The translations under genes and the position numbers were made by a program. Shown in pieces: positions 1,675 through 26,229 of a stretch of 30,820 nucleotides of DNA (positions are counted from its first letter, which is position 1; the number at the start of each line of letters is the position of its first letter). This stretch comes from a virus: positions 1 through 30,820 of IMG/VR virus record IMGVR_UViG_3300045970_000325; one strand, 5' to 3'. The notes beneath the pieces are model-generated. The model was not told where the DNA came from and made no database searches. It saw nothing but the letters and a program-made list of their open reading frames with translations.

Positions 1675-1696
1675 AGAGGGATCAATTGATCCCTCT
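1675..1696 (-). terminator. Intrinsic terminator after the 200-aa PEP-CTERM gene
   Basis: A perfect 22-bp palindrome (AGAGGGATCAATTGATCCCTCT) followed on the minus strand by TTTTC. It sits 23 nt past the stop of the gene ending at 1719. The late promoter box ATAAATA abuts and overlaps its 5' arm, so the local promoter would start inside the stem. Confidence 0.75.
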
Positions 1697-1702
1697 ATTT
1701 AT
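1696..1702 (-). promoter_or_regulatory. T4-type late promoter box, protease gene
   Basis: Minus-strand CATAAATAG, matching the TATAAATA-type late -10 of T4-like phages, located 38 nt upstream of ATG 1657. The expected start lies within the 5' arm of the 1675-1696 terminator hairpin. Confidence 0.65.
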
Positions 1703-1718: not shown

Positions 1719-2321
1719 TCAACGGCGGCGACGAAGTGCCAGTAGACCCAGGACGCCAAGACCTGAGAGGCCCATCGCGCCTGTTGTCGGTTCAGGCACT
1801 GCTGCTGCCGCGTAGACGTACTGTGTGTAGGTCTTGTTGTCCAGCGAGAAGGCGGAGAAGGCCGAGTTGCCAGAGCCAGCAGCTGACATCCATGTCAGGG
1901 CCAGCGGCACCGCGTTGCCCAGCGAGATGTTGTCGACGATTTCGAAGTTGACACCAGAGAGGACCCAGACACCAAGCTGGACAGCAGCGGTAGTCTCAGC
2001 GGAGTTGACCATCGGGGCCGTGTAGGTCAGGAAGTTGGCGAGGTTGCCGCTGATGCCGCTGCTGACGTAGTCCATCGTCGATGGTGGGGTGTTGCTCGAG
2101 CCTGGCAGCGACGTCGAGTAGATCGTGAGGCTGTCGCCGTTGTAGGTAGCGAGCAAGCCACCAATGGTCGTCGTGAAGTTGTTGACAAACCCCGTGCCTG
2201 TCGAGATGGTGCCTTGACCCTGCGGTGCGAAGGCTGGACCGTTGAAGGCGACTGGGCCAAAGGTAACGGCTTGGGTAGCCATCGAGATGGTGAGTGCGGC
2301 GAGTGCGAGAAGCTTCTTCAT
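1719..2321 (-). CDS. PEP-CTERM sorting-domain surface protein (short paralog)
   Basis: A 200-aa secreted protein. Signal peptide at residues 1-18 (MKKLLALAALTISMATQA). The beta-rich, Ser/Thr/Gly-rich body ends in a canonical PEP-CTERM tripartite signal: VPEPTT at 175-180, a hydrophobic helix, then RRRR. In exosortase hosts this signal directs export, cleavage and surface/EPS attachment. It is a diverged paralog of the next upstream protein: TIYSTS (66-71) aligns with TVFCVD, and TAAVQLGVWVL with SAGLQLAVWEL. It has no Cys at all, so the putative thioester of its paralog cannot form. The SD AAGGA lies 6 nt before the ATG. Own late promoter box at 2365-2371; terminator at 1675-1696. Confidence 0.85.
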   Translation of the reverse strand: MKKLLALAALTISMATQAVTFGPVAFNGPAFAPQGQGTISTGTGFVNNFTTTIGGLLATYNGDSLTIYSTSLPGSSNTPPSTMDYVSSGISGNLANFLTYTAPMVNSAETTAAVQLGVWVLSGVNFEIVDNISLGNAVPLALTWMSAAGSGNSAFSAFSLDNKTYTQYVYAAAAVPEPTTGAMGLSGLGVLGLLALRRRR

Positions 2322-2340
2322 GATAGGTCCTTGATATGGA

Positions 2341-2366
2341 AAGGGGAGATCCGTAGATCTCCCCTT
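2341..2366 (-). terminator. Hairpin terminator after the 245-aa PEP-CTERM gene
   Basis: A perfect 11-bp stem (2341-2351 with 2356-2366) closed on the minus strand by C(UACG)G, a stable UNCG-type tetraloop. Only a weak T-run (CCCCTTTCC) follows. The 5' arm overlaps the TAAATA late box, the same arrangement as at 1675-1702 and 24082-24111. Confidence 0.65.
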
Positions 2367-2371
2367 ATTTA
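2365..2371 (-). promoter_or_regulatory. T4-type late promoter box, 200-aa PEP-CTERM gene
   Basis: Minus-strand GCGTAAATAAGG, 43 nt upstream of ATG 2321. The box runs straight into the 5' arm of the 2341-2366 hairpin, so transcripts initiated here should lack part of that arm. Confidence 0.6.
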
Positions 2372-2391
2372 CGCCTTGCAGCGCGGTAGGC

Positions 2392-3129
2392 TTAGACCTT
2401 GTTCTTGCGGCTCAGGCCGAAGACGCCAAGCAGACCCAGACCGGCGAGGGCCAGGCTGGTAGGCTCAGGGACGTCGCAGGCACCGTTGCCGATGGAGCAG
2501 CTGTCACCAGGAGTGAACGACGCGGTGATGAAGTTCTGGTAGTTCGGCTTCGAACGGTAGGCTTCGTCGGCGAACAGGCTGATCGTGTAGTCAGCGTTCG
2601 ACGTTACAGCACCGGCCAGGAGCGTGTTAGCCCAGGCTTGGGCTGCAGCCGGAGCAGAGCCAGCGTTGAAATTGCCAGTGCCCAGTGAGCCGCCTTCGCC
2701 GTCGTACAGGAGTTCCCACACAGCGAGTTGCAGGCCAGCCGAGGTAGCCGCATCGATGCTGGAGACACCGTTGTTGTACGTGAACAGCTTGGACAGAGCG
2801 TTGATGTTGGCAGGCTCGAGCGCGACGCCGAAGTCAGCTTGCGCGTAGTCGATCTTGTCGTACGTGATGGCTGAACCGAATGTACCGGCGTGCGAGAACA
2901 GGTCCACGCAGAACACCGTGTAGGGTGCAGGCCCGAAACTGTCAGTAAACGTGGCAGACAGGCCGCCGATACCAGCGGAGACCGGGCTGCCCCAGCCAAA
3001 CACGACGCCGCCGGGAGCACCAGCTTGTTCGAAGCCGGTGAGGGTCAGAGTGCCGGAGGTGGTGACCGGCGAGGCAGATGCGGCAAAGGCTGCGACAGCC
3101 AGAGCCAGGGAAGAGAGGATACGCTTCAT
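2392..3129 (-). CDS. PEP-CTERM surface protein with thioester-like Cys/Gln signature
   Basis: A 245-aa secreted protein. Signal peptide at residues 1-19 (MKRILSSLALAVAAFAASA), VPEPTS at 220-225, then a hydrophobic helix and the basic tail SRKNKV: a full PEP-CTERM signal. The body contains YTVFCVDLF (Cys74) and, about 60 residues on, SAGLQLAVWELLYDGEG (Gln134). This spacing and context resemble Cys-Gln thioester adhesin domains, in which Cys and Gln crosslink and then attack target surfaces; that reading is an inference. Cys211 and Cys218 near the C-terminus could form a disulfide. Driven by a sigma70-like promoter (3176-3205) rather than a late box, suggesting earlier or host-polymerase expression than its neighbours. 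Confidence 0.88.
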   Translation of the reverse strand: MKRILSSLALAVAAFAASASPVTTSGTLTLTGFEQAGAPGGVVFGWGSPVSAGIGGLSATFTDSFGPAPYTVFCVDLFSHAGTFGSAITYDKIDYAQADFGVALEPANINALSKLFTYNNGVSSIDAATSAGLQLAVWELLYDGEGGSLGTGNFNAGSAPAAAQAWANTLLAGAVTSNADYTISLFADEAYRSKPNYQNFITASFTPGDSCSIGNGACDVPEPTSLALAGLGLLGVFGLSRKNKV

Positions 3130-3175: not shown

Positions 3176-3205
3176 ATTGTAGTCTATGTAGGGCAATCTG
3201 TACAA
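3176..3205 (-). promoter_or_regulatory. Sigma70-like promoter for the 245-aa PEP-CTERM gene
   Basis: Minus-strand TTGTAC (3200-3205), 18-nt spacer, TACAAT (3176-3181), in an AT-rich gap, 46 nt upstream of ATG 3129. No late box is present in this gap. Confidence 0.5.
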
Positions 3206-3209
3206 GTGT

Positions 3210-3425
3210 TTACGATGTTTTTATAGGTTGAACTGCCTCCACGTAGACGGTGAATAACATACCCTGGGCCAGGTAGCGGATCCTGACCTCGAGCACCTTG
3301 AACTTGGTATGGCCATCGAAGATGACGTCGTCCTTGCGCGGGACGAAGGGTACCACGTCAGTCTGGCTCGTCTGCAAGACGTCATCGCCCCGCAGAATGC
3401 AGACCTCGTAGAGACCGTTGGCCAT
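3210..3425 (-). CDS. Small phage protein, 71 aa, unknown function
   Basis: The product begins MANGLYEVCILRGDDVLQTS and is beta-rich (VVPFVPRKDDVIFDG, then FKVLEVRIRYLAQGMLFTVYVEAV). The reading frame is open 69 nt further upstream, but ATG 3425 overlaps the stop of the preceding gene (TGATG), so coupled initiation there is preferred. No homologue is recognised. Second gene of the 3850 unit; the sigma70-like promoter of the next gene begins immediately after its stop. Confidence 0.7.
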   Translation of the reverse strand: MANGLYEVCILRGDDVLQTSQTDVVPFVPRKDDVIFDGHTKFKVLEVRIRYLAQGMLFTVYVEAVQPIKTS

Positions 3426-3850
3426 CAGAAGTGCGGGTTCTGTTCGTAGATGTGACCAGCGACCATGCCCCAGGTGCCACCTGGCTGGTACCATCCAGAG
3501 GTCAGGCCCTTGCGGCGATAAGTGTGACCGGTTGAAGTCGTCACCTGGAAGGTAGGCGTGATCTTGACGATGGTGCCGTCCGGGTAGTAGTCACCATTGA
3601 AGCCGTAGGAGACCTCGTCACCCACCGCCGGGGCATTGATGATGTCGTACCGAGGGCTGTGATGGGGACCGTTGTCAATCGGGAGATAGTCACGTGCAGT
3701 CATCGCCGTGATGTACCTGGACAGGCGTGAGACCGTCTCGAAGTCCTTCCAGTCCCAGCGTGATTGCCAGGTCGGGTCCGAGTGTTGCTGGGCGACCAAC
3801 TGGGTGGCTACCTCTACAGGCAGACCGTTCTCAACTTTCACGAAGATCAT
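3425..3850 (-). CDS. Phage hypothetical protein, 141 aa, two-part architecture
   Basis: The product begins MIFVKVENGLPVEVATQLV. Residues 1-60 are helical and charged. The C-terminal half is a Gly/Trp/Tyr-rich beta region (GDEVSYGFNGDYYPDGTIV, then GHTYRRKG, then SGWYQPGGTWGMVAGHI) resembling a small barrel repeated in other phage proteins; no function is known to me. ATG 3850 has a strong SD (AAGGAG, 7 nt spacing) and is preferred over an ATG 36 nt upstream that would overlap the promoter. A promoter of the shared extended -10 family lies 24 nt upstream. Confidence 0.75.
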   Translation of the reverse strand: MIFVKVENGLPVEVATQLVAQQHSDPTWQSRWDWKDFETVSRLSRYITAMTARDYLPIDNGPHHSPRYDIINAPAVGDEVSYGFNGDYYPDGTIVKITPTFQVTTSTGHTYRRKGLTSGWYQPGGTWGMVAGHIYEQNPHF

Positions 3851-3874
3851 GATGGGTCTCCTTGCAATATGCCC

Positions 3875-3902
3875 ATTATACCACACTGGCCAGGAAAGTG
3901 TA
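3875..3902 (-). promoter_or_regulatory. Extended -10 promoter for the 3850 operon
   Basis: Minus-strand TACACT (3897-3902), 16-nt spacer, GTGTGG-TATAAT with the -10 at 3875-3880: a perfect hexamer with the TGn extension. Second copy of the motif seen at 797-825 and 4838-4866. A short imperfect inverted repeat (ACACT ... AGTGT) surrounds the spacer. Confidence 0.65.
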
Positions 3903-8327: not shown

Positions 8328-11300
8328 TTAAGCGATGCTGCCGCCGACGACTACTTCAGTTGCTGTGTTGTACCAGATCGTGCAGGAGCCGCGTGCTGCG
8401 AGAGACACTGATGTCACTGATGCAGCAGTACCGTCCTTGTACATCGTTGGCGCAGTGCCTGCAGTGCCAGTAGCATTTGCTGCTGCTGTCAACGTGACAG
8501 TACCACCTGTGTTGTTGTAGAAGCTGACGATGTCACCAACTGCAATCGAGACGCCATCAGAGTAGGAGGTACCTGGGATGTTGGTGCCTGCTGCCAGAGC
8601 AACACGCTTGCCGCGGGCAGTCGAGTCTAATGTGGTAACGCGTGGCAGGTTGCGATAGCCAATTTCAATGCCACCGACAGTTGCTGCTGCTGCTACCGAA
8701 GTGAGCGATGAGCTAACGACGGTTGCTGCGAGTGTTGTACCAGTCAGTGCGCTTGCTGCAACACCAATCGTCTGCCACGTAGGAGCAGCACCAGTGCCGT
8801 TTGAGGTGATAACCTGTCCAGAAGTACCGTAGTTAGCACCGCCGAGACCCCAACCGCCGTTGCTTTCAATGTACAGACGGTTTGCGCCGCCCGTAGCGAT
8901 AGAGACGCCAGCGCTGCCAGTATTACGAGATGCCAGCAGCAAGGTGCCGTTTGCATTACCTACGTTGAAGGTCGTCGCGGTACCAGCCCAACCAACAAAG
9001 CAGTCCTGCGCTGAAGTGATAGTGCCACTGACAAAGCCGACCTGAAGAGAACCGGCACTGCCGTTCAATGGGACGCTTGTCGAGGAACCAAACGATGCAC
9101 CAGCAGAGCCGGAGATAAGACCCGTAGAGAGCGAGGTCAACGTACCTACAGAAGTCAGTGACGACGAGACAATGGTTGAAGCCAGTGATGTGCCAGTTAG
9201 TGCAGATCCAGCAACAGAGTTTGTCTGCCAGGTAGGAGCAGATGCACCATTGGATGCCAATACCTGACCAGCAGTACCCGTTGAACCATTGAGCTGAATG
9301 TTACCAACAACGTTCAGTGCTGAAGGCACCGTGGCAAGGCTGGATGTTACTGTGAACCACTGCGTTGGGCTCAGACTGGTTGGTGACGTAGCTTGACCAA
9401 GGAACATTGAGCTGTTGTTGCCGCCCAGACCCATAACGCCCGAACCAGAGTGGTTCAGCACATAACGCAGCTGATTTGTACCTGCTGTTGACCAGTCAGC
9501 AAGTGCGATAGTCGATGCTGCTACTGCGCCAACTGTTCCACTGGATCCTACCTGTACGGTAGAGCCGCCGAGGACAGTGCCACCAGCGACTGTAAGTGAA
9601 GTCAGGTTACCAACTGAAGTCAGCGATGAGCTAACAATGTTAGAAGCGAGTGAAGTGCCAGTCAGAGCAGAACCGGCAAAGGTGAAAGTCGACCACGTTG
9701 GCGCTGCGCTCGAACCTGCTGAGGTGAGCACCTGACCAGATGTACCGTAGTTAGCACCAGATAGACCGAAGGCACCAGATGCGTCGATGCGCAGGCGCTC
9801 AGTTACCGTAGTATTAACGGCTGTCGAGAAGAAGATTGAACCGCCGCCGATGAGACCTGTGCCACTTGCAGCACCCGTGCCACCGGTAATATTGATTGAA
9901 CCGCCACGATGTACAGTACTTGCACCGCCGGTAATGTTGACATAACCTGCACCCGATGTGCTATCACCGGTACCGCCAGCGATGTTAACGTAACCACCAG
10001 TAGAACCACCATTACCACCCGTAATGTTGACTGGACCACCACTAGCAGCACCTGTACCAGCAGCACCTGATAGGTTCAACGAACCAGCTGGCGCACCAGC
10101 AACGTTATTCGAAGGCGTCCAGGCACCTGGAGCAATGGTGATATTTCCAGGGTTGTTTGCAGATGATGGTGATGTGCCAGTCGTGATGTTGATTGATGAT
10201 ACTGTCTGACCAGCTACTCCAGTGGTGCTGGCGGTAGTGATGGTAGCCGTAGCGCCTGCAGTGCTACCAAGTTGAAGGGTCTGCGTGCCGTTAGTCCACG
10301 TAAACAACGATGATCCAGCGAGAGCACCGGCGTTATTATACTGGATTTGGGTGTCTGCACCAGCAGCACCAACAGTTGCCAGCGACCAGGTAGGAGTTGC
10401 ACCGGCACCAGCCGATGTCAGAACTTGACCGGCTGTACCTGCAGAAGCGCCAACCTGCAGTGGTGATGCGGCACCAGCCAAGTTGAATGCGCCGGTCTGT
10501 GTGTGCGTACCAGTGACAGCGAGCGATGACAGAGTGCCAACTGATGTCAGTGATGACGTAACGACGTTAGCGGCGAGTGTTGTGCCAGTCACAGTTGAAG
10601 CATTGACAACGCCTGCGGCAAACAGTGCAAACACCATTGCCTGCGAACCAACTGTCGTGATGGTGGCAGTTTGTGTCCACGAGGTCGAAGCATTGGTTGT
10701 ACCAGCAATGACGTAGACTGCGGCACCGTTAACTTCACCAACAGATGGAGCGCCGTCCATATCGGTAGAGCGGGTCCATGAACCAGCAGCAGCAACGTAG
10801 ATGCCGTTTTGGGTAGCAGTCGTCTGGTCCTTGACCAGCACGCGGGTGCCTGCAACAACTGACACGCCGTCGATTGTTTGAACACCCGTGAGGGAGATGT
10901 TGGCTGTCGTTGCAGCACCAACAGCGTTCTTCCATGTCAGACCGTTGACTGCGGTATCAACGTATGACTTGGTAGCAAGGTGGGTAGAGACGGTTGGATC
11001 AGCAGCTGTAACGTTACCAGTTACTGTCAGTGAACCGAGAGTACCAACGGAAGTCAGCGATGACGAGACAACGTTAGCTGCCAGGGTTGTTCCAGTCAGT
11101 GTCGAGGCTGCACCTGCAGCAGCCGACTGCCATGTTGGTGCAGCATTGCCGTTCGAGGTCAGAATTTGACCTGTAGTACCATAGTTGGCACCGCTCAGAC
11201 CCCATCCGCCCTGTGCAGAAATGTACAGACGTGATGTGCCGCCAGTAACCAGCGAGATACCCGTGTTGGTGTTGTTACGACCGGCGAGAAGCAGGGTACC

Positions 11301-11972
11301 ATTGCCACCAACTGACTGTGTAGTATTGGCGCTTGCGCCTGCCCAAGCAACATATGCGTCTTGGACAGAGGTGATGTCGCTATTGACATAACCAAACTGA
11401 AGATAGCCAGTGGTGCCAGTGGTAGAGATGGCAGAACCACCACCCAGTGTCAGCCCGCTGGAGATTGACAGTGAGCCAAGGGTACCTACAGATGTCAGTG
11501 ACGACGAGACAACGTTAGAAGCGAGTGATGTACCAGTCAGTGTCGAGGCTGCGCCTGATGACGCTGTCTGCCATGTTGGCGTTGTGCCAGTACCAGCTGA
11601 AGTCAGCACCTGTCCAGAGGTACCCGCAGAGCCCTGCAGCTGCAGCGATGATGTGGTACCAGCCAGATTGAGAGCACCTGTCTGCGTGTGTGTACCTGTG
11701 ACAACGAGTGAACCGAGTGTACCAACAGAAGTCAGTGAAGATGAGACTACGTTGGATGCCAGTGTCGTGCCGGTGAGGGCAGAAGCAGCAGAAGAACCGC
11801 CACCAGATCCAGTAGATGCCCAGGCGCTGCCAGTGTACACGTACAGGAGGCTATCCGTCGTCTTGAAGAACAACTCACCAGCATTGGCGGTCGTAGGGAA
11901 GGTGGTGCCAGTTTCAACTGACGCATTAGAGATTGAAGAGCCCTCAAAGAGCTTGATACCGTCTACGAGCAT
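8328..11972 (-). CDS. Long repeat-rich tail fibre protein, 1214 aa
   Basis: The N-terminus (MLVDGIKLFEGSSISNAS, then PTTANAGELFFKTTDSLLYVY) is a virion-attachment-type segment. The body has seven copies of a ~25-residue unit (ALTGTTLASNVVSSSLTSVG and variants), alternating with three modules: AQDxxVxWAG...RLYIxxxGGWGLxGANYG; one LVKDQTTATQNGIYVAAAG domain as in T4-like fibres; and a Gly/Ile-rich SINITGGTG triplet-repeat region probably forming a beta-helix. The C-terminal ~100 residues (RGKRVALAAGTNI...) differ from its paralog and may be the receptor-binding end. SD AGGGG is 7 nt before the ATG, with a late box at 12001-12006. Paralog of the gene at 12136-13563. Confidence 0.88.
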   Translation of the reverse strand: MLVDGIKLFEGSSISNASVETGTTFPTTANAGELFFKTTDSLLYVYTGSAWASTGSGGGSSAASALTGTTLASNVVSSSLTSVGTLGSLVVTGTHTQTGALNLAGTTSSLQLQGSAGTSGQVLTSAGTGTTPTWQTASSGAASTLTGTSLASNVVSSSLTSVGTLGSLSISSGLTLGGGSAISTTGTTGYLQFGYVNSDITSVQDAYVAWAGASANTTQSVGGNGTLLLAGRNNTNTGISLVTGGTSRLYISAQGGWGLSGANYGTTGQILTSNGNAAPTWQSAAAGAASTLTGTTLAANVVSSSLTSVGTLGSLTVTGNVTAADPTVSTHLATKSYVDTAVNGLTWKNAVGAATTANISLTGVQTIDGVSVVAGTRVLVKDQTTATQNGIYVAAAGSWTRSTDMDGAPSVGEVNGAAVYVIAGTTNASTSWTQTATITTVGSQAMVFALFAAGVVNASTVTGTTLAANVVTSSLTSVGTLSSLAVTGTHTQTGAFNLAGAASPLQVGASAGTAGQVLTSAGAGATPTWSLATVGAAGADTQIQYNNAGALAGSSLFTWTNGTQTLQLGSTAGATATITTASTTGVAGQTVSSINITTGTSPSSANNPGNITIAPGAWTPSNNVAGAPAGSLNLSGAAGTGAASGGPVNITGGNGGSTGGYVNIAGGTGDSTSGAGYVNITGGASTVHRGGSINITGGTGAASGTGLIGGGSIFFSTAVNTTVTERLRIDASGAFGLSGANYGTSGQVLTSAGSSAAPTWSTFTFAGSALTGTSLASNIVSSSLTSVGNLTSLTVAGGTVLGGSTVQVGSSGTVGAVAASTIALADWSTAGTNQLRYVLNHSGSGVMGLGGNNSSMFLGQATSPTSLSPTQWFTVTSSLATVPSALNVVGNIQLNGSTGTAGQVLASNGASAPTWQTNSVAGSALTGTSLASTIVSSSLTSVGTLTSLSTGLISGSAGASFGSSTSVPLNGSAGSLQVGFVSGTITSAQDCFVGWAGTATTFNVGNANGTLLLASRNTGSAGVSIATGGANRLYIESNGGWGLGGANYGTSGQVITSNGTGAAPTWQTIGVAASALTGTTLAATVVSSSLTSVAAAATVGGIEIGYRNLPRVTTLDSTARGKRVALAAGTNIPGTSYSDGVSIAVGDIVSFYNNTGGTVTLTAAANATGTAGTAPTMYKDGTAASVTSVSLAARGSCTIWYNTATEVVVGGSIA

Positions 11973-12135: not shown

Positions 12136-13563
12136 TTAGAAGTTCAAACCAGCAACGAAGCCGTACCAATTTGTGCCGCCGTCCGGCGTCATCAGCGATA
12201 CGATATCAGTCTTTCCGGCGGTGGTCGTCAGAGTTGGCGCAGTGCCACCAGACCACTTGACTGAAGCTGGCCACGCGATTGTAGTAGAAGCAACACTGTG
12301 GTTGATGACGAGCGTGACGCTTGCAACACGACCAGATGCTGGAACATTAGAGAAAGCCAGCGTCGTGATGCTCACACCCAGCGTGACGGTGAACGTGTTT
12401 GCCGTGCTCAGATCCAGCGTAGTCGATGCGGTTGCAGTAACTGCTGTGCTCTGCTCATCGTAGGCACCCTTGAATGATGTGACACCGGTTGATGATACGA
12501 ACAGGCGGGATGTACCGGCGGTAGCGATAGAGACACCAGCTGAACCGGCGTTACGTGCTGACAGGATCAGCGTACCACCAGCTTGACCTGGGCTCAGGGT
12601 TGCGGCTGCAGAAACACCACCCCAGGCAACGTATGCGTCCTGGGTAGATGTGACCGTGCCATTCAGGTAGCCGAGCTGTAGGGCACCTGCAGTGCCAGCG
12701 AGTGGGATGTTGCTGGTATTCGTATCAACTGCAAGACTACCGCCAACGTTCAGCGATGCGCCAGCGGTACCTGTGCTGTTCACCTTCGTGCCAGAGACCA
12801 ACGTACCAACAGAAGTCAGCGATGAAGCCAGCACGTTGGATGCCAACGTTGTGCCCGTAAGTGTGCTTGCAGCAGCTGCGCCAGTGGCAGCGAACTGTGC
12901 AAATGTCATTGCCTGTGAACCAACTACAGTGATCGTCGCAGTCTGTGTCCATGCAGTGTCAGCGAACGTAGTACCGTCAGTGACGTACACCGCTGCGCCG
13001 TTTACTTCGCCAACTGATGGGGCGCCGTCCATATCAGTAGAACGGGTCCATGCTCCGGCAGCAACGACATAGACGCCGTTCTGAGTAGCAGTTGTCTGGT
13101 TCTTGACCAGCACGCGGTTGCCTGCAGCGAGTGCAACGCCATCAACTGTCTGGGTGCCCGACAGTGTCAAGTTAGCGGTAGATGCGGCAGAAACGGCTGT
13201 CTTCCAGGTCAGACCGTTGATTGCGGTGTCAACATATGACTTGGTGGCGAGGTGACCAGAGGTCGTTGGGTCAGAAGCCGTAACGTTGCCGGTGACTGTC
13301 AGTGAACCAAGAGTACCAACAGAGGTCAGTGACGAACTAACAACGTTAGAAGCAAGCGTCGTGCCGGTCAGCGATGATGCTGCGCCAGTGCCGCCCGAGC
13401 CAGCGGCGGTCCAGACGGTGCCGTTATACACGTACAGCAGGTCATCAGTCGTCTTGAAGAACAACTCACCCATGTTTGCAGTTGTAGGGAAAGCAGTGCC
13501 AGTTTCAATTGACGCATTTGAAATTGAAGAGCCTTCAAGTAGCTTGATGCCATCTACGAGCAT
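12136..13563 (-). CDS. Tail fibre protein, 475 aa, paralog of the 1214-aa fibre
   Basis: The first ~65 residues match the paralog almost exactly (MLVDGIKLLEGSSISNAS, PTTANMGELFFKTTDDLLYVY). Next come one TLASNVVSSSLTSVG unit, one LVKNQTTATQNGVYVVAAG domain, a second repeat unit and one AQD-type module (AYVAWGG...SRLFVSSTG). It ends in a distinct C-terminal domain (LGVSITTLAFSNV ... TNWYGFVAGLNF) of a kind common at phage fibre ends. It is a shorter fibre or base segment that could trimerise and pair with the longer protein. SD AGGA 7 nt before the ATG. A late box lies 28 nt upstream and a small hairpin (13572-13589) sits in the leader. Confidence 0.88.
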   Translation of the reverse strand: MLVDGIKLLEGSSISNASIETGTAFPTTANMGELFFKTTDDLLYVYNGTVWTAAGSGGTGAASSLTGTTLASNVVSSSLTSVGTLGSLTVTGNVTASDPTTSGHLATKSYVDTAINGLTWKTAVSAASTANLTLSGTQTVDGVALAAGNRVLVKNQTTATQNGVYVVAAGAWTRSTDMDGAPSVGEVNGAAVYVTDGTTFADTAWTQTATITVVGSQAMTFAQFAATGAAAASTLTGTTLASNVLASSLTSVGTLVSGTKVNSTGTAGASLNVGGSLAVDTNTSNIPLAGTAGALQLGYLNGTVTSTQDAYVAWGGVSAAATLSPGQAGGTLILSARNAGSAGVSIATAGTSRLFVSSTGVTSFKGAYDEQSTAVTATASTTLDLSTANTFTVTLGVSITTLAFSNVPASGRVASVTLVINHSVASTTIAWPASVKWSGGTAPTLTTTAGKTDIVSLMTPDGGTNWYGFVAGLNF

Positions 13564-15205: not shown

Positions 15206-15538
15206 CTACTCGCGTGGAGGCACTTTCGGGAAAGCCTTGACTGGCTTCATGTTGACGACTTGATAACCATCGTCAAACTTCTTGAGCGTAAAGTCCTCAT
15301 CAGTCTCCTTTATGCCGAAGTAGATGCGCTCCTCTAGACCGAACTTTGGTCGAGCGTAGACTGTCTGACCCTTGGTCATGAAGACCTTGCCATTGTAGTG
15401 CACGTACTGAAGCATACCCTGCACATCCTCAAGCAGCTTGAAATTGAAGTAGACGTTAGTGCCCTTGCTCAAGAGCAGCTTGATCATGGTCAACAGCATT
15501 GAGCCGTCTTCCTCTTCGAGCAGCTGATGGACCTTCAT
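15206..15538 (-). CDS. Small protein with capsid-targeting-like N-terminus, 110 aa
   Basis: Starts MKVHQLLEEEDGSMLLTMIK. The first ~11 residues fit the module shared by many proteins in this window (short amphipathic start ending in [L/I]-x-E), resembling the T4 internal-protein capsid targeting sequence. The next segment, LLTMIKLLLSKGTNVYF, matches LLSSVIVSLLKKGEKVRCF in the adjacent gene, so the two look like diverged duplicates. The rest is beta-rich and ends in VVNMKPVKAFPKVPP, a motif echoed in other members. ATG 15538 overlaps the preceding stop (ATGA). Function unknown; I infer a packaged virion protein. Confidence 0.75.
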   Translation of the reverse strand: MKVHQLLEEEDGSMLLTMIKLLLSKGTNVYFNFKLLEDVQGMLQYVHYNGKVFMTKGQTVYARPKFGLEERIYFGIKETDEDFTLKKFDDGYQVVNMKPVKAFPKVPPRE

Positions 15539-15852
15539 ACCATAAACGGCTTGGTCTTCTTCTCACGAAGCGTCCAGATGCCATTCTCCTGCTTGAAGTA
15601 GATCTTTGAGTTCTCTTCATCGGTATCAGGAAGGTCAAACCAACTCGTCACACTCGGACTAATGCGAAAGGTGATGCGGTTGTTCTGCGCTGAGACGACT
15701 GGGTAGATGATGCCTTTGCGCAGTTTTGGATCAGGATGCCACACCTCAGCGAAGCAACGAACCTTCTCGCCCTTCTTCAGCAAGCTGACGATGACGCTGG
15801 ATAGAAGAGTTGACTTGTCTTCCTCTGCCAGAAACTGCTTGAAGGTCATCAT
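15535..15852 (-). CDS. Small protein with capsid-targeting-like N-terminus, 105 aa
   Basis: Starts MMTFKQFLAEEDKSTLLSS. The segment TFKQFLAEED is strikingly like the T4 IPIII start as I recall it (MKTYQEFIAE), with LAE as the potential prohead-protease site. Followed by an amphipathic LLSSVIVSLLKKG helix and a beta-rich body (IIYPVVSAQNNRITFRIS). ATG 15852 overlaps the upstream TGA; the frame extends 36 nt further but without an RBS. Diverged duplicate of the next gene downstream (15206-15538). Function unknown. Confidence 0.75.
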   Translation of the reverse strand: MMTFKQFLAEEDKSTLLSSVIVSLLKKGEKVRCFAEVWHPDPKLRKGIIYPVVSAQNNRITFRISPSVTSWFDLPDTDEENSKIYFKQENGIWTLREKKTKPFMV

Positions 15853-16490
15853 ACCTTGAACTTCCCGTCTTGGTCGTACACTTCCCACTCACCACGATGG
15901 TCATCATTACGGTAGATTGCTAACGTGTCATCATCGTCAGGCACAATCTCAAACCAAGTTTCTTGCTCATTACCGTCATCGTCAGGCATCAGAAAGAGGC
16001 AGTTGACGTAGAAGTGGCGACGCTCATCACCTGGCTTGTAATTAGGCTCTTCACGAATAGTCCACTGACCAGTGGCTCCGAAAATATCTGACCATACACG
16101 TTGACCTTTGTCGTTGGCATGCTTGATGGCGCGCCAGATCAGTGGTGCTGAGGCAGGGCGTTCCCAGCTTTCACCATCATGGATCTTGTAGCCAGGGGTC
16201 ACAGCCTCCGCTGTGCGTATCAGCGGGGTAGTCTTTACTGGCTTGAGTGCCTTTACTGCCTTCTCGAAGGTGAGACCCTTCGTACGCTTATAGACCTTAC
16301 CATTGTGAAACCAATCGATGTTCCACACATCATCCCTTACGTACAGGTCAGCAACCCGATACATGTTCTTGACGGTCAAGTGTGTAGAGCTGTGCTCAGA
16401 CCACCAACCGTTCTTGTTCAACCACTTATGGGCGATATCCAGATTAGTGGCATTGTCCAGTGTTTCGTATAGAAGCTCAGAGATCTTCAT
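15849..16490 (-). CDS. Protein with capsid-targeting-like N-terminus, 213 aa
   Basis: Starts MKISELLYETLDNATNLDI, with LYE as the potential cleavage site. The body contains two Trp-rich beta segments (HKWLNKNGWWSEH and VWNIDWFHNGKVYKR), then FEKAVKALKPVKTTP, a motif related to LRPVK and MKPVK in neighbouring proteins, and a very acidic C-terminal third (EIVPDDDDTLAIY). ATG 16490 is chosen because only that start gives the shared N-terminus; it overlaps the preceding gene by 14 nt. A start at 16562 would add 24 residues encoded inside the upstream gene. Function unknown. Confidence 0.75.
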   Translation of the reverse strand: MKISELLYETLDNATNLDIAHKWLNKNGWWSEHSSTHLTVKNMYRVADLYVRDDVWNIDWFHNGKVYKRTKGLTFEKAVKALKPVKTTPLIRTAEAVTPGYKIHDGESWERPASAPLIWRAIKHANDKGQRVWSDIFGATGQWTIREEPNYKPGDERRHFYVNCLFLMPDDDGNEQETWFEIVPDDDDTLAIYRNDDHRGEWEVYDQDGKFKV

Positions 16491-17499
16491 CGTGTTCAAT
16501 ACTTTTGACCCAGTAGAAGTCAGACTGTGGGTCCTTCTCCAGGGTAAAACGATCATCATCATCCGGTTTCATTGGAATATACCACGACTTGCCATAGGCA
16601 TAGACATCAACCTTGCGGGTAGTCATGTCAATGTTCATGATCTCACCTTGGATGAACTTGAAGTTCTGCCCATCTACCTCAGCTGCCATTGAAACGCGCT
16701 TGCGTCTGGCTTTCTCCTTGGCAGCAACCTGCCATACAAGTGCAACATCATCTTGGCTTTCCTTGACAGGGCGCAGGCTATCAAGTACGCGAATAATATC
16801 CTCTTCGGTAGCAGCCTTGATCTTCTGCGTTTTGCTGTCTTTATGCAGTATCATCACCCAGCCGCCCGTCTTCATTGCACTGATGACCACGAACTTCTGC
16901 AGATTGTGTACTAAAATTACCGGCGGATCACTAGCATCGGCGATAGCATGAAAGCTCTTCTTTAGAAGTTTTAGCAGCATGTTAGCGCGCTCAGCCTGAG
17001 AAAGAAGATCCTCATTGACCCTATACAATAACACTGCCTCGCCAAGAGCAGACATGTCCTTGACCATTCTGTCATAGTCAACGTGCTTCATTCCAGCAGC
17101 TTTCCACGCAGACTGCCACTCATCGGACCAGTAGCCCGACAGCCAAGGAATGTTGATCTCGCCTTCACCACTAGGCATCTCGACGCGGGTAGAGAGGAAA
17201 CGCCGTAGATGTGGTCGCTTCTTCAACTCCTCAGCTACAATCTGTCGAATTACACGTGTCTCATGGGTTGGAATGTTTTCACCGCCACCACCAAACCAGC
17301 GGAAGCTGATGCTGTGACTGTAGATGCCGATGCCACCGTAGTCATCTGTGTCCTTATAGAGGCTATCCAGCTTCTCGAGGCGCTTCTGCACAGCAAAGAG
17401 GAAACCCACCGCCTCGCGAACTGCCTGAATATCCTCAGGCTTTGCAAGTGGCAGCTTCGGCTCTACGTGCTTCGGCTTCTTAATCTCGCACAGTTTCAT
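16477..17499 (-). CDS. Phage protein, 340 aa, unknown function (divergent member of the N-terminal family)
   Basis: Starts MKLCEIKKPKHVEPKLPLA: it resembles the MKxxEL module but lacks the [L/I]-x-E site, so cleavage is doubtful. Residues 28-50 are helical. The C-terminal half contains TEEDIIRVLDSLRPVKESQ, related to the LKPVK motif of neighbours, then an acidic/Trp tail (GKSWYIPMKPDDDDRFTLE). No signal peptide or catalytic motif is seen. ATG 17499 overlaps the preceding stop (ATGA) and its end overlaps the next ATG by 14 nt, so it is embedded in the coupled chain. I do not recognise a family. Confidence 0.72.
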   Translation of the reverse strand: MKLCEIKKPKHVEPKLPLAKPEDIQAVREAVGFLFAVQKRLEKLDSLYKDTDDYGGIGIYSHSISFRWFGGGGENIPTHETRVIRQIVAEELKKRPHLRRFLSTRVEMPSGEGEINIPWLSGYWSDEWQSAWKAAGMKHVDYDRMVKDMSALGEAVLLYRVNEDLLSQAERANMLLKLLKKSFHAIADASDPPVILVHNLQKFVVISAMKTGGWVMILHKDSKTQKIKAATEEDIIRVLDSLRPVKESQDDVALVWQVAAKEKARRKRVSMAAEVDGQNFKFIQGEIMNIDMTTRKVDVYAYGKSWYIPMKPDDDDRFTLEKDPQSDFYWVKSIEHDEDL

Positions 17500-17726
17500 G
17501 GGTGTGCGATCTGCGCGTGGTAAAAGATGCTTGACTTGTTGTCGATCTTGCCAGTCTTGCGGTCAATCTTGCCGCCGTAATGCTCAGCCTGGCGGTGCAC
17601 ACGATCATGCAGCTCAGCCATCGCCACCATAACCTCGGCATGTGTCAGCGGCTTCGATGGAGATGCATCGAGCAGCTTGAAGTTGGGCTCATAGCCCTTA
17701 GCCTCGAATAGCTCGCTTACCTTCAT
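17496..17726 (-). CDS. Small protein with capsid-targeting-like N-terminus, 76 aa
   Basis: Starts MKVSELFEAKGYEPNFKLL, with LFE at residues 6-8. The remaining 65 residues include a helical segment (LTHAEVMVAMAELHDRVHRQ) and a basic, Lys-rich stretch (GGKIDRKTGKIDNKSS). Small, basic and targeted, it resembles T4 internal proteins in general properties. ATGA overlaps at both ends link it to its neighbours. Function unknown. Confidence 0.75.
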   Translation of the reverse strand: MKVSELFEAKGYEPNFKLLDASPSKPLTHAEVMVAMAELHDRVHRQAEHYGGKIDRKTGKIDNKSSIFYHAQIAHP

Positions 17727-18286
17727 GACTTCATTATCTCAGCATTTTTAGCTTCAGTCTTTGCAAGCGTCTTAGCCCGATTTGCTGCCAGCTTTGTTAG
17801 ACCAACCAGCAGTTCCTCAGGCGTTTCATACTTTGTTGTCTTCCAGTAGATAAGTCCATCACTAGCCTCGAGGTACCATTTGCCCTTCTTGTAAGAGGCA
17901 TTGAAGTACTGCTTTTCACGATTAGGTGGGGTTTTGTCCCCGGCGTTCGCAAACCACAACATGTCAGGCAGTCGTCCAACCACATGCTTCCCGCCGTCTT
18001 TGCTGTCCTTTATGGCCAAGTCGCTAGTGTTTGCAGGTGCGGCCTTTGCGATGAGTTTGAGCTGAAACTCTACCTCATCTTTGCTCATGACCTTATCTTG
18101 CAGCTGCGCCGCAAGAAGGTCCATGTCCTTTGTAGACATGCCCTTTGCCGCCAGACCGATCATCAGATCATAGGCCTTGGCATACACCTCAGGTGTAATG
18201 ATATCACGCAGCCTCTTGATCTTGGCATTACCTGCCTGGTAAAGAGTTACGTCCTCAAGGCCTTCAAGCAGCTCAGTAGTTTTCAT
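17723..18286 (-). CDS. Protein with capsid-targeting-like N-terminus, 187 aa
   Basis: Starts MKTTELLEGLEDVTLYQAG, with LLE at 6-8 and LED at 10-12. A helical region follows (ITPEVYAKAYDLMIGLAAKG, STKDMDLLAAQLQDKVM), then a beta-rich part (KKGKWYLEASDGLIYWKTT), then a Lys/Ala-rich C-terminal helix. ATG 18286 follows the upstream stop after a single base; a TTG 42 nt upstream would remove the shared N-terminus and lies within the upstream gene. No family is recognised. Confidence 0.75.
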   Translation of the reverse strand: MKTTELLEGLEDVTLYQAGNAKIKRLRDIITPEVYAKAYDLMIGLAAKGMSTKDMDLLAAQLQDKVMSKDEVEFQLKLIAKAAPANTSDLAIKDSKDGGKHVVGRLPDMLWFANAGDKTPPNREKQYFNASYKKGKWYLEASDGLIYWKTTKYETPEELLVGLTKLAANRAKTLAKTEAKNAEIMKS

Positions 18287-18287
18287 G

Positions 18288-18716
18288 TCAGCGTAGATTT
18301 TCCAGTTTGTACTTGGCGCGAGCGACAATGCCCTGCAGCTCCTCGAACTTGTTGACCAACCACTTGTCCTGCGGGATCACAGCATGCTGCCCTTCAAGAA
18401 AGGTGAACAGCTGGCGAATGAACTCCAGCGGATCTTGCTCGCTGAATGGGTTTGGGTCACTGAGCTCAACGTGAGCATCAGTGCCATACTTGCCCATGTA
18501 CATCTCAAAGAGTTCATCAGTCAGGTCGAGCAGCTCTTCATAGAGGTCACCAAGTGCCAGGTGCATTGAGAGCGACTTGACCTTCCAGTGCCACATGTGG
18601 GTGACATCGCGTGCCTTGAGCAAGAGCCCAATCAGGTTGGCCATCGGGCCGTGTGTCTCTGGGTTACTGGCTGCTACGCTCTGATCGTAGATTGCTGGAT
18701 AATCTGGGTAGTCCAT
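18288..18716 (-). CDS. Dps/ferritin-like phage protein, 142 aa
   Basis: Starts MDYPDYPAIYDQSVAASN and is almost all helical. The motif HMWHWKVKSLSMHLALGDLY followed by DELFEMYMGKYG resembles the first helices of Dps-type ferritin-like proteins and a phage family of that fold (similar to proteins I recall as DUF5856). Candidate metal ligands are the His and Glu/Asp residues in those helices. The likely role is metal or oxidant binding or DNA protection, but iron-site completeness cannot be judged here. ATG 18716 is chosen over an upstream ATG because AAGGA lies 7 nt before it and a late box (18740-18745) is 23 nt upstream. It does not carry the capsid-targeting-like start. Confidence 0.7.
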   Translation of the reverse strand: MDYPDYPAIYDQSVAASNPETHGPMANLIGLLLKARDVTHMWHWKVKSLSMHLALGDLYEELLDLTDELFEMYMGKYGTDAHVELSDPNPFSEQDPLEFIRQLFTFLEGQHAVIPQDKWLVNKFEELQGIVARAKYKLENLR

Positions 18717-18738
18717 TGTGGCGTCCTTTTTGTAGTTG

Positions 18739-19905
18739 TTATTTAGCCGTATCATCTGGCAACTTAGCGAGTTGCTCAGTCACCCACTTCTTGAAGAGGG
18801 CCTGGTCGAATGCCTCTCCGTCAGAAACTCCCTGCACAGCAATCTGCTTGCCAGTCCGGTCATGCATACTCCACCAGTAGACAAATCCTGCCTGCCGACG
18901 CTGAAAGATGTTTGCAATGCCACACACGCTATTTTCCATCAAGCGGGTGATACCAAACATCGTCTTTCCAGGTTGATGGTCATTCATAGACATGGTGTAG
19001 CCACCCTTAAGGTAGACCTCCTTGTCCCAATACCTAATGCGTTGACGAATGGGAAAGTTGTCAACCGCCTCGGCAACCTTCGGCGGATGCTTGGCAGCCC
19101 AGTCCTTGGCGGTGGTGATTACCTTGGTAGATGATAGCCCATTCCACATCTTCTTGTAGGTGCCTGCACCATCTTCCGGGCCGATACCAAGAAACCAGGT
19201 ATCATCAGCTTCACTCTGGCAGTAGAATTCATAGATCCATTTGCCCTTGACAAATCCAGCAGATAGGTCATCAGCGCTGCTATCGAGGATAAAGCCGCTG
19301 CTCTGAAAGGCCTTGAGGATCATCTTAAACTGGAAATCAGCTTCACTGCTGTCATCTTCTAGCTCTTCGGTTAAGCCCAGTTTCTGAGCTCCAGTCTTCA
19401 TGGCATCAATGGCCCACTTCTTAAACTCATTGATGTCAAAGGCTTCACCCGCCGGTACCTTGATACCAAGGCCCTGCGTAAAGTGCCCATTCTTTCCGGC
19501 GGTGTAGGATGCACCACCCTCATAGGCATCATTGTGACCACGAATAATGCCTGCTGATAGCTGCACATTGACAGGCTCACCCATCAACTCTTCAACTTCA
19601 TACTTTACGTAGTGCGGGTACTCTTCATTTCGAACAGCGACATAGGGTCCATACAGTCGAATGTGCTCAGGCCACTTCGAGAATGCCCAGGTGCTGTCCT
19701 CCTCGAGCATCATCCATTCTTTCAGAGTGACGACCTCCATCAGACCCATCATCCGCTTGAAGGTATTCATGACCTTGCCCCAATACCAGTGGCCTTTACG
19801 CTTGCCTTTGGTTATGGCCTTCTTGGCCTCAGCCCAGTGGTGCTCAGCGGTCTCTAACGAGACACCTGCGCGTTCAGCAGCATGAGCTACAAACTTGGTT
19901 GGCAT
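18739..19905 (-). CDS. Composite phage protein, 388 aa, with an internal capsid-targeting-like motif
   Basis: Residues 1-54 (FVAHAAERAGVSLETAEHHW ... GHWYWGKVMNTFKRMMG) form a small helical domain seen at the start of other phage proteins. It is followed at residues 59-70 by VTLKEWMMLEED, close to the N-termini TFKQFLLEED and TFKQFLAEED elsewhere here. The remainder has at least two copies of a loosely related beta/helix unit ending in F-K-K-W (EFKKWAIDAM, LFKKWVTEQLA). The C-terminal unit (MFGITRLMENSVCGIANIF) matches TFGIKRLMHDEEVGEASII in the gene at 20517-21056. ATG 19905 has AAGGA 5 nt upstream. Function unknown; perhaps a packaged protein with a removable N-terminal domain. Confidence 0.72.
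   Translation of the reverse strand: MPTKFVAHAAERAGVSLETAEHHWAEAKKAITKGKRKGHWYWGKVMNTFKRMMGLMEVVTLKEWMMLEEDSTWAFSKWPEHIRLYGPYVAVRNEEYPHYVKYEVEELMGEPVNVQLSAGIIRGHNDAYEGGASYTAGKNGHFTQGLGIKVPAGEAFDINEFKKWAIDAMKTGAQKLGLTEELEDDSSEADFQFKMILKAFQSSGFILDSSADDLSAGFVKGKWIYEFYCQSEADDTWFLGIGPEDGAGTYKKMWNGLSSTKVITTAKDWAAKHPPKVAEAVDNFPIRQRIRYWDKEVYLKGGYTMSMNDHQPGKTMFGITRLMENSVCGIANIFQRRQAGFVYWWSMHDRTGKQIAVQGVSDGEAFDQALFKKWVTEQLAKLPDDTAK
18740..18745 (-). promoter_or_regulatory. T4-type late promoter box, Dps-like gene
   Basis: Minus-strand GCTAAATAACA overlapping the TAA stop of the 388-aa gene, 23 nt upstream of ATG 18716. It would drive the coupled run from 18716 to 15206. Confidence 0.6.
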
Positions 19906-19923
19906 GTCAATCCTTGTGAAGAT

Positions 19924-20127
19924 TTACTCTTCAACTTCCTCGACGGAGACGTCCTTGCCAGCCATACCAGTAAACCAGTGGTTGTGATCATGGACAGCAG
20001 CCACGTCACGCGCATGCTTTGCATCACGCGCGTAGACCTTCATCTCTTGGTTGTAGCGCTTTGACTTCACAAGAAAGCACTTCTCACCTGGCTTCTTTTC
20101 AGCCTCAAATAGCTCACTGATCTTCAT
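19924..20127 (-). CDS. Nested 67-aa capsid-targeting-like protein (internal start)
   Basis: ATG 20127 is in frame inside the 198-aa gene and encodes MKISELFEAEKKPGEKCFLV. GGAAG lies 4 nt upstream. The first ten residues are nearly the same as MKVSELFEA at 17726 and MKISELLYE at 16490, which strongly suggests this is the native start of an originally separate gene. The short body is basic then His-rich (AAVHDHNHWF) and ends acidic. Confidence 0.6.
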   Translation of the reverse strand: MKISELFEAEKKPGEKCFLVKSKRYNQEMKVYARDAKHARDVAAVHDHNHWFTGMAGKDVSVEEVEE

Positions 20128-20520
20128 ATCTCTTCCAATCGTTGGTTGATGGACCGTCATTAGTCCGGCTTCTGTTATCTGTTCTCTCATCCACTGCTTT
20201 AACTTTTGGGGCTTGATAAACTCAGCCACCTCCAGAAACGGCTTGAATGAGTGCTTAAAACCAATTGCCTCCTTGACAGCTGGCACCGCGTATGCATATG
20301 CCAGCCTGCGTTCAGGATCTTCAATCTGTACGAACAGCGCGGTACGATATTGAAAGAGGTGTAACACCCACTTCCCGCCGGCGACCTCTACGCGTTCGCT
20401 CTCCAGCTCCTTGGCCTTATCAATGAGATTATCGTCAAAGTCTCTTGGTTGGATAATCATTGGCGTCTCGTTGCCTAGAAGTGCATGTATCTTGGCTCTG
20501 ATGGCCGGTATAAGGTTCAT
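19924..20520 (-). CDS. In-frame fusion: unknown N-terminal domain plus capsid-targeted small protein, 198 aa
   Basis: Starts MNLIPAIRAKIHALLGNET. Residues 1-120 form an unknown alpha/beta domain (KWVLHLFQYRTALFVQIED, then FIKPQKLKQWMREQITEAG) with an F/L-K-x-W ending like its neighbours. At residue 132 the sequence restarts as MKISELFEAEKKPGEK, the standard N-terminal module, preceded by a good SD (GGAAG). There is no stop between the parts, so one mRNA could give both a 198-aa fusion and a 67-aa protein. ATG 20520 overlaps the upstream stop (ATGA). Confidence 0.68.
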   Translation of the reverse strand: MNLIPAIRAKIHALLGNETPMIIQPRDFDDNLIDKAKELESERVEVAGGKWVLHLFQYRTALFVQIEDPERRLAYAYAVPAVKEAIGFKHSFKPFLEVAEFIKPQKLKQWMREQITEAGLMTVHQPTIGRDMKISELFEAEKKPGEKCFLVKSKRYNQEMKVYARDAKHARDVAAVHDHNHWFTGMAGKDVSVEEVEE

Positions 20521-21056
20521 GATTTTACTTGCTTTCCATTAACAAGCTTTAGCTTGAATGTTCCGAAATCACTTCTTGAGTAGAGGTGATGCTGAATAAG
20601 TTGACCTGGGTTGGCCTTGACCATATAGTTATGCTGATGGCGCGCCTGCTCTTCAGTATCAAAATATGACTTAGCATCATTCATACCACTCTCAGAGCCA
20701 CTCTTGTTAAGACGATGCAGCCAAACATTCTTGGTGTTGTTACCATAGAGGCGTGCTTCGCCAAGCTGTGTTTCAAGGTGCTTACGAACCCATTTGCTGA
20801 AGGCCTTCATATCATAGAGCGTCTTGGCGCTGTCGATACGATTGCTGCTCTTCTCGCCATTGACTTTCATGACCCAGATACCGCGCCATGCATCACCTTC
20901 AGTGCTGATAATAGAGGCCTCGCCAACCTCTTCATCATGCATCAGGCGTTTGATGCCAAACGTGATGAAACTCGGCTCCTGTCTAGCATCGTTCTCAAGA
21001 TAGAAACCGCCGCTCATCATGACGATGTCGTCTTTGGTGATCTCAGACAGCTTCAC
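20517..21056 (-). CDS. Phage protein, 179 aa, divergent member of the N-terminal family
   Basis: Starts MKLSEITKDDIVMMSGGFY from a GTG (GTGA overlap with the previous stop). The N-terminus follows MKxSE but lacks [L/I]-x-E, so processing is uncertain; the internal QLGEARLYG (about residues 96-104) offers another possible site. Residues 29-95 (TFGIKRLMHDEEVGEASII ... AFSKWVRKHLE) are paralogous to the C-terminal unit of the 388-aa protein. The C-terminal part, with QARHQHNYMVKANPGQLIQ, is unrelated to anything I recognise. Confidence 0.7.
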   Translation of the reverse strand: MKLSEITKDDIVMMSGGFYLENDARQEPSFITFGIKRLMHDEEVGEASIISTEGDAWRGIWVMKVNGEKSSNRIDSAKTLYDMKAFSKWVRKHLETQLGEARLYGNNTKNVWLHRLNKSGSESGMNDAKSYFDTEEQARHQHNYMVKANPGQLIQHHLYSRSDFGTFKLKLVNGKQVKS

Positions 21057-21517: not shown

Positions 21518-21972
21518 ATTGCTCTCCCCATTGCTGGTGCCTGACGCTTACGAACACCTGCAAACATGGTTTTCTCGGTTATTACACGGAAAGTGGCACC
21601 GTTCTGTTCGGCGAAGGCAGCGGCTGCCTTCCATTTAGCTTCATTGATCTGGAGGGCAGCAGCATCTCTCTCAGTCATGCGAGGTGTAGGCACAGTTTCC
21701 TTGTATGGCTTGATCTCTACAATCTCCTTGCGGATTGAGCCGTCCTTGTGTTTGTACATTACGATCATGTCGGGGAAATAGCGGTGCACACGCAGATCCT
21801 TCGGGCTAACATAGGGAATAGCAAGCTCTTCTGAGCCCCAACGAATGATAGCGGGGTTTGCATCGAGCCACTTCATGAATGTCAACTCCCAGCTGGAGCG
21901 AAACATTATCCGATTGACATTGCCAGTGTATTTCTCTGGATGTGGCGGCTTAAAACGTCCATATGCAGCCAT
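21514..21972 (-). CDS. gp4: Head completion protein (T4 gp4-like)
   Basis: 152 aa, the same length as T4 gp4 (about 150). The order of motifs matches: a basic N-terminus (YGRFKPPHPEKYTGNVNRI), FRSSWELTFMKWLDANPAI, IRWGSEELAIPYVSP, RVHRYFPDMIVMYKHKDGS, EIVEIKPYKETVPT, and KWKAAAAFAEQNGATFRVI. The central D...E-x-K pattern (FPDM ... EIKP) is the PD-(D/E)xK-like nuclease core reported for this family. It stabilises filled heads before tail joining. ATG 21972 overlaps the preceding TAA (TAATG), so it is coupled to the tube-type gene upstream. Confidence 0.82.
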   Translation of the reverse strand: MAAYGRFKPPHPEKYTGNVNRIMFRSSWELTFMKWLDANPAIIRWGSEELAIPYVSPKDLRVHRYFPDMIVMYKHKDGSIRKEIVEIKPYKETVPTPRMTERDAAALQINEAKWKAAAAFAEQNGATFRVITEKTMFAGVRKRQAPAMGRAI

Positions 21973-23328: not shown

Positions 23329-23335
23329 TATTTAT
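23329..23335 (-). promoter_or_regulatory. T4-type late promoter box, 444-aa structural gene
   Basis: Minus-strand CCATAAATAGAAC, 22 nt upstream of ATG 23306, overlapping the TAA stop of the homing endonuclease gene. It would head the long coupled run toward 19924. Confidence 0.65.
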
Positions 23336-24780: not shown

Positions 24781-24833
24781 GCGCAGGGCACTATGGGACC
24801 TGATTTTGCTACCAAAGTTTGGCTGTATTGATG

Positions 24834-24839
24834 TATAAT
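24834..24839 (+). promoter_or_regulatory. Consensus -10 (TATAAT) of the plus-strand endonuclease gene
   Basis: An exact TATAAT whose 3' end is 6 nt before ATG 24846. No convincing -35 at 17 nt and no extended TGn. The predicted start coincides with the ATG, suggesting a leaderless mRNA. Confidence 0.45.
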
Positions 24840-24845
24840 CAGCAC

Positions 24846-26224: not shown

Positions 26225-26229
26225 GCTTG

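Follow-up and report, generated by a model that had tools for sequence, protein, structure and literature searches.

A T4-like phage fragment encodes putative exosortase-sorted surface proteins, one of which resembles thioester-domain adhesins

We analysed a stretch of 30,820 bases (the window), which makes up the linear IMG/VR record IMGVR_UViG_3300045970_000325, and found in it two neighbouring genes, PEPa and PEPb, whose products are, in our judgement, probably phage-encoded surface proteins sorted by exosortase, PEPb being of the thioester-domain (TED) type. Together with an adjoining papain-like peptidase, they would form an accessory surface-protein cassette. Judged from the sequences, known parts appear to be newly combined here, in that a phage-borne, exosortase-sorted protein of Gram-negative type has a TED-like passenger; a literature search with limited coverage of subscription journals returned no publication that treats phage PEP-CTERM proteins in their own right or links TED with PEP-CTERM. 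Any particular benefit that the phage would gain is proposed here with considerable reserve.

Results

Two PEP-CTERM proteins in a T4-like virion gene region

Both genes lie on the minus strand, PEPb preceding PEPa in the direction of transcription, and their open reading frames agree exactly with those in an initial annotation of this DNA: PEPb occupies 2392–3129 (245 aa: signal peptide, TED-like domain, PEP-CTERM tail) and PEPa 1719–2321 (200 aa: signal peptide, a diverged TED-like domain without Cys, PEP-CTERM tail). The signal peptide and full VPEP–helix–basic tail that the annotation had described were seen in both proteins. The N-termini of PEPa and PEPb are hydrophobic (MKKLLALAALTISMATQA and MKRILSSLALAVAAFAASA) and lead into AxA-type cut sites, signal peptides having been called from hydropathy and cut-site pattern. 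That of PEPb (3073–3129, minus strand, residues 1–19) is predicted from sequence and hydropathy to be cut after ASA. At the C-termini, VPEP leads into a run of hydrophobic residues, and both proteins close with basic residues (RRRR and SRKNKV).

The proposed profile check for PEP-CTERM was positive for both proteins with Pfam PF07589 (gathering cut-off 20.7 bits), which matched residues 174–199 of PEPa (29.3 bits, E = 8.5e-7) and residues 219–242 of PEPb (31.9 bits, E = 1.3e-7). TIGR02595 (cut-off 16 bits) recognised PEPb only, at 19.5 bits, with PEPa narrowly below at 14.7 bits. The sorting signals were placed at 2395–2472 in PEPb (minus strand, residues 220–245, both profiles) and at 1722–1799 in PEPa (minus strand, residues 175–200, PF07589). 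The two genes had also been described as a duplicated pair; with about 29% identity over an alignment, their products are diverged members of a family and not recent copies.

The assignment of the surroundings to a T4-like virion gene region held up, as profile searches identified TerL, tail sheath, tail tube and a gp4-like head closure protein within the window. Relatives of TerL in IMG/VR include contigs of 251 kb and 350 kb, and the nearest isolate by TerL is the jumbo phage XacN1 (42% identity). We regard the window as part of the genome of an uncultured, T4-like jumbo myovirus, whose host would be a Gram-negative bacterium with exosortase, probably a member of the Burkholderiales.

Several other features of the window are recorded here. 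Paralogous fibre-like proteins with a common N-terminus and internal repeats are encoded at 8328–11972 and 12136–13563. The tail-tube family has two members, encoded at 21972–23306 and 24135–24719, one of which is considerably extended at its C-terminus. Homing-endonuclease-like ORFs flank the tail tube gene as insertions, at 23332–24075 (minus strand, GIY-YIG-like by eye) and 24819–25664 (one of the few long plus-strand ORFs in the window). About ten short minus-strand genes (15206–21056, 25637–26225 and 28971–29755) have a common N-terminal tag, with the variants MQTFKQFLLEED, MMTFKQFLAEED, MITFKEYIAEG, MKVSELFEAKG and MKISELFEAEK. This tag seems similar to the sequence by which internal head proteins of T4-type phages are targeted to the capsid, and because of that likeness the tagged genes may represent a battery of head-packed proteins ejected with the DNA.

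A conserved place with varying passengers in three phages

Among 22 related phage records, 20 contained no match to PF07589 and the other two contained one above cut-off at the syntenic place, a distribution that argues against chance matches. The two records, IMGVR_UViG_3300045971_000431 (G003, TerL 84% identical) and IMGVR_UViG_3300016484_000735 (G017, TerL about 69%), are contigs from two other metagenomes. All three phages have in common the order W3425 (window 3425–3886), a small gene, the PEP-CTERM gene or genes, and a papain-family peptidase. In eight other relatives, in which the stretch past the fibre genes was read, different short genes follow W3425 or fill the place, with lipoproteins among the genes at the equivalent place in L016 and L017; since other short genes occupy it in these eight, we consider it an accessory place with changing contents. 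The suggested search of phage databases for homologues thus yielded syntenic PEP-CTERM genes in both contigs and a relative of PEPb in G003. GC content runs continuously from the PEP-CTERM region into the neighbouring genes, and, with the synteny in two phages and a phage promoter-like motif (xTAAATA, see below) inside the cassette, this supports the earlier view that the genes are phage-borne.

The papain-family (C1) peptidase is encoded at 854–1669 on the minus strand (PF00112, E = 7e-13; phrog_16701, E = 2e-21), its actual start probably being the ATG at 1654, and has the triad residues Cys77-His218-Asn236. Its gene adjoins the PEP-CTERM genes in the window, G003 and G017 and is missing from most relatives; only one of the eight others read (G016) has a relative of it, more distant and at a different location. 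Burkholderia phage FLC9 is among the jumbo phages in which distant relatives also occur.

The place is conserved in the three phages while its passengers vary. In G003, a TED-like protein 46% identical to PEPb over 258 columns, with C74 and Q198 kept, is paired with a mini PEP-CTERM protein of 77 aa (L087:9787–10020), whereas G017 has a 225-aa PEP-CTERM protein without TED motifs and with a similar two-Cys segment ahead of VPEP. As the tail is kept and the passengers differ, there are hints that display, rather than any single passenger, is what the place provides. TED chemistry is not its conserved function, because PEPa is without Cys and G017 has a protein that is not TED-like. The 77-aa protein consists of nearly nothing but a signal peptide and a PEP-CTERM tail, and could be an exosortase decoy.

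PEPb has the motifs of thioester domains

By its sequence, PEPb is a member of a Burkholderiales PEP-CTERM family bearing all three TED motifs. The TED is a covalent-adhesin fold reported exclusively from Gram-positive bacteria, with the signatures [YFL]C-hydrophobic-hydrophilic, TQxx-hydrophobic-W in the central helix (in most, not all, TEDs) and hydrophobic-Q-hydrophilic-hydrophobic-hydrophobic around the thioester Gln (Walden et al., PMC4450167). PEPb has all three in this order: the putative thioester Cys74 in FCVD (2908–2910, minus strand), Q134–W138 in the helix motif LQLAVWELLYD (2716–2730, minus strand), which begins with L and not T, and the putative thioester Gln198 in YQNFI (2536–2538, minus strand). 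In the family alignment of 25 sequences (22 bacterial and three from phages), Q134 and W138 are invariant, and Cys74 and Gln198 are each conserved in at least 90%. An internal Cys–Gln thioester is predicted for PEPb, its Cys–Gln spacing being 124 residues versus 129–153 in three structures of PMC4450167. All three motifs survived in two of 200,000 shuffles of mature PEPb, with a pattern that had been written after the protein was seen. Q134 of LQLAVWE was also considered as the thioester Gln and rejected, as it falls in the helix motif of PMC4450167 and the later Q198 is the thioester candidate.

Bacterial relatives of PEPb were found by genome scan in Ideonella livida, another betaproteobacterium, Armatimonadetes and Planctomyces, and the exosortase profile PF09721 matched in all five genomes in which such relatives were first found. 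A PEPb-family profile matched in 32 of 151 genomes of Ideonella's taxonomic family. When the same 151 genomes were scanned with the Pfam TED profile PF08341, nine matches were obtained, four of them above cut-off, whereas 14 control genomes gave none. The PEPb-family profile had already found the ORFs that contain seven of the nine, including two of the four above cut-off. Within the family alignment, the Pfam TED profile matches 10 of the 25 members (best E = 0.0015), and any non-TED family matches at most one of them outside the sorting tail. PEPb itself gave no match to PF08341 even at E = 5. For this reason we call it TED-like and not a member of PF08341, and base the link on its relatives, its motifs and weak structure matches.

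The AlphaFold2 models of PEPb are weak (pLDDT 40.6 for the full length and 42.6 for the mature protein). With the mature model, the top five matches in a Foldseek search of 350,542 PDB chains were TEDs (4c0z, 5a0l) of Cpa and SfbI, the best at E = 0.59, and by VIA the best seven rows were all TED entries (Z 3.0–4.8), followed by the FasR regulator at 2.1. The full-length model matched no TED and was set aside as unusable; a PDB sequence search with the PEPb-family profile returned one chance match only. The TED-like domain of PEPb is located near the anchor; known TED adhesins usually have stalk domains.

PEPa retains AAVQLGVW and a late TQYVY, has Ser69 at the Cys position and contains no Cys anywhere. 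Its C-terminal half, tail included, aligns with the PEPb family at an hhalign probability of 96%. The bacterial proteins most closely related to PEPa (35% and 32% identity) have the Cys and a QLA[VL]WE motif, the Cys being present also in its best bacterial match (E = 1.5e-9). By homology, PEPa is a thioester-dead relative of the TED-like family. A gene-dose reading of the pair was dropped, given that PEPa has no Cys.

Promoter-like motifs within the cassette

The heptamer xTAAATA, which we take to be close to the T4 late-promoter core TATAAATA, occurs in the window in 12 copies on the minus strand and none on the plus strand; the motif was picked after the sequence had been seen, and the strand bias is nonetheless strong. 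All 12 copies lie 10–90 nt upstream of a gene start (mean 1.1 with random placement, 12 reached in none of 10,000 trials), and the genes that they precede include sheath, tube, terminase, PEPa and the peptidase. The copy upstream of PEPa is GTAAATA (2366–2372, minus strand) and that upstream of the peptidase is ATAAATA (1696–1702, minus strand), the latter with the same motif and place in G003 and G017, where xTAAATA is found almost exclusively on the coding strand. Hairpins are located between PEPb and PEPa (2341–2366, 11-bp arms, no strand assigned) and between PEPa and the peptidase gene (1675–1696, minus strand); the position of the second is conserved in G003 and G017, where it directly follows the motif, ahead of the peptidase.

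PEPb has no xTAAATA upstream. A consensus scan placed a sigma-70-like promoter candidate there (TGTACA-17-TACAAT, 3176–3204, minus strand) that scores 9/12, near chance level, and at the equivalent place G003 has a sigma-70-like site of 10/12 plus ATAAATA. The xTAAATA motif suggests that PEPa and the peptidase are late-expressed, and PEPb may be separately timed.

PEP-CTERM genes in other phages

No further phage emerged when PEPa and PEPb were used in peptide-pattern and tblastn searches. The sole viral relative found for PEPb is the one in G003, and the TED type is carried by only two phage contigs. Two further phage PEP-CTERM proteins had no match among the INPHARED phages, and each of three phage PEP-CTERM proteins compared with PHROGs was without a family there. 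In 50 phage records, exosortase never matched above cut-off, and we therefore presume that the enzyme is supplied by the host.

A duplicated PEP-CTERM pair had been considered unexpected in a T4-like virion gene region. PEP-CTERM genes in phages are not rare, as shown by a single strict DNA pattern, VPEPxx[hydrophobic]A..G, which occurs in at least 120 stretches in IMG/VR (loci L095–L214): 111 of the 128 matches listed look like PEP-CTERM C-termini, counts that are not an estimate of prevalence, as IMG/VR takes in proviruses with host flanks. Among the matches listed, 27 loci have genes in common and about 40 encode a protein like that of L122, the gene for which is located between portal and terminase. 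In unrelated phages, several PEP-CTERM genes among these matches sit next to terminase or portal; in loci of other groups, the same stretch also contains terminase, portal or virion genes.

Taken as a whole, the initial annotation was right that these are real PEP-CTERM surface proteins of a T4-like phage, with relatives in exosortase-positive Gram-negative genomes. Its view of the finding as unexpected needs correcting, since PEP-CTERM genes in phages are not rare, and it overlooked the TED-like passengers, the linked peptidase and the promoter motif.

Discussion

PEP-CTERM proteins are exported by Sec and cut by exosortase, then released or attached at the cell surface or to extracellular polymeric substance (EPS). 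During infection, PEPa and PEPb would be exported by the same route, and the host exosortase would cut their tails, leaving the proteins released or attached to the cell surface or EPS. PEPb could then bind amines on the matrix or on neighbouring cells covalently through its internal Cys–Gln thioester, while PEPa would contribute a non-reactive domain. By analogy with two known systems, the surface of the infected cell may be remodelled or cross-linked: overexpression of PepA in Aquincola increases cell-bound exopolysaccharide, decreases the soluble form and restores flocs (PMC9850573), and efficient conjugation of the Bacillus plasmid pLS20 depends on its TED adhesin, whose activity is lost on a point mutation expected to prevent thioester formation (PMC8092201). 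Possible gains would be the hiding of receptors (superinfection exclusion), the holding of infected cells among susceptible neighbours and the keeping together of released matrix; one guess for the peptidase is that it trims surface proteins.

In its full form, the proposal is that a T4-like phage makes its own thioester adhesin, displayed by the host exosortase, which cross-links infected cells or matrix to neighbours for spread or exclusion of competitors, that exosortase-sorted proteins are a common and overlooked class of phage accessory proteins, and that TED chemistry exists in Gram-negative PEP-CTERM proteins. We offer it tentatively, as a possibility that merits attention more than belief.

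Other explanations have to be weighed against it. The genes could derive from a captured host matrix gene for a PepA-like flocculation or EPS protein that keeps infected cells in flocs, the TED fold being a leftover without covalent chemistry. PEPb weakly matches the model of floc-associated PepA, NF033554 (E = 3.4e-6, 27 bits, below the cut-off of 80), which other phages' PEP-CTERM proteins match more strongly (L122, E = 1e-10); the restoration of flocs by PepA in Aquincola and the loss of Cys in PEPa point the same way. However, matches to the PepA model include the common tail, and C74 and Q198 of PEPb are retained across nearly the whole family, and we consider this origin unlikely.

A decoy function, in which the host sorting enzyme is flooded with substrates and the host coat weakened, would leave the passenger hardly relevant. 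It is in keeping with the 77-aa protein of G003 and with a tail and place that are kept in three phages with differing passengers, but a decoy has no need of a passenger such as that of PEPb, which is 46% identical in G003 with C74 and Q198 kept; its probability is in our view low. Lower still is that of a virion component that decorates particles and aids sticking to EPS. It is true that virion genes surround the two genes, that the fibre genes lie upstream of them with respect to transcription, and that PEPa has its promoter-like motif in common with sheath and terminase, yet signal peptides and membrane-anchor tails direct proteins out of the cytoplasm, where tailed phages assemble, and no PHROGs virion family matches PEPa or PEPb. 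Bacterial DNA joined to the phage by misassembly, which had been named as a possible refutation and to which the bacterial relatives of the passengers might point, is contradicted by the identical gene order in contigs of two other metagenomes, the phage promoter motif within the cassette and the continuous GC content, and hardly deserves credence.

Should the reading of a phage-made, exosortase-displayed thioester adhesin be true, phages would reprogramme, via the exosortase pathway, both the surface and the matrix of bacteria that form biofilms and flocs, and a covalent-adhesin fold thought to be Gram-positive would be active in PEP-CTERM proteins of Gram-negative bacteria. The reading would also draw attention to many phage genes left unnamed in databases, as exemplified by the three tested proteins without a PHROGs family.

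Comparison with known systems

The window proteins have the same signal peptide, PEP motif, hydrophobic helix and basic end as PEP-CTERM substrates such as PepA of Aquincola tertiaricarbonis, and likewise have relatives in Burkholderiales. They differ from such exosortase substrates in being phage-borne and in lying in a virion cluster with a peptidase, exosortase itself not having been found on related phage records. Exosortase-tail proteins on virus contigs have a precedent in hot springs, where exosortase-domain proteins (TIGR03118) are listed as gene transfers of unknown function; the passage on them gives no locus anatomy or link to TED (PMC11003980).

With the TED adhesins Cpa, SfbI and BaTIE (PF08341; PMC4450167), PEPb has in common the three motifs in order and, in its weak model, a predicted layout of beta, three helices and beta; TEDs of this group are also the closest PDB matches of that model. 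Unlike them, it has a Gram-negative PEP-CTERM anchor in place of LPXTG and no stalk domains, and PF08341 is blind to it. The TIE adhesin of pLS20 (PMC8092201) offers a parallel in that a mobile element encodes a TED adhesin for display by its host; there the element is a Gram-positive plasmid and the adhesin serves mating, whereas here it is a T4-like phage.
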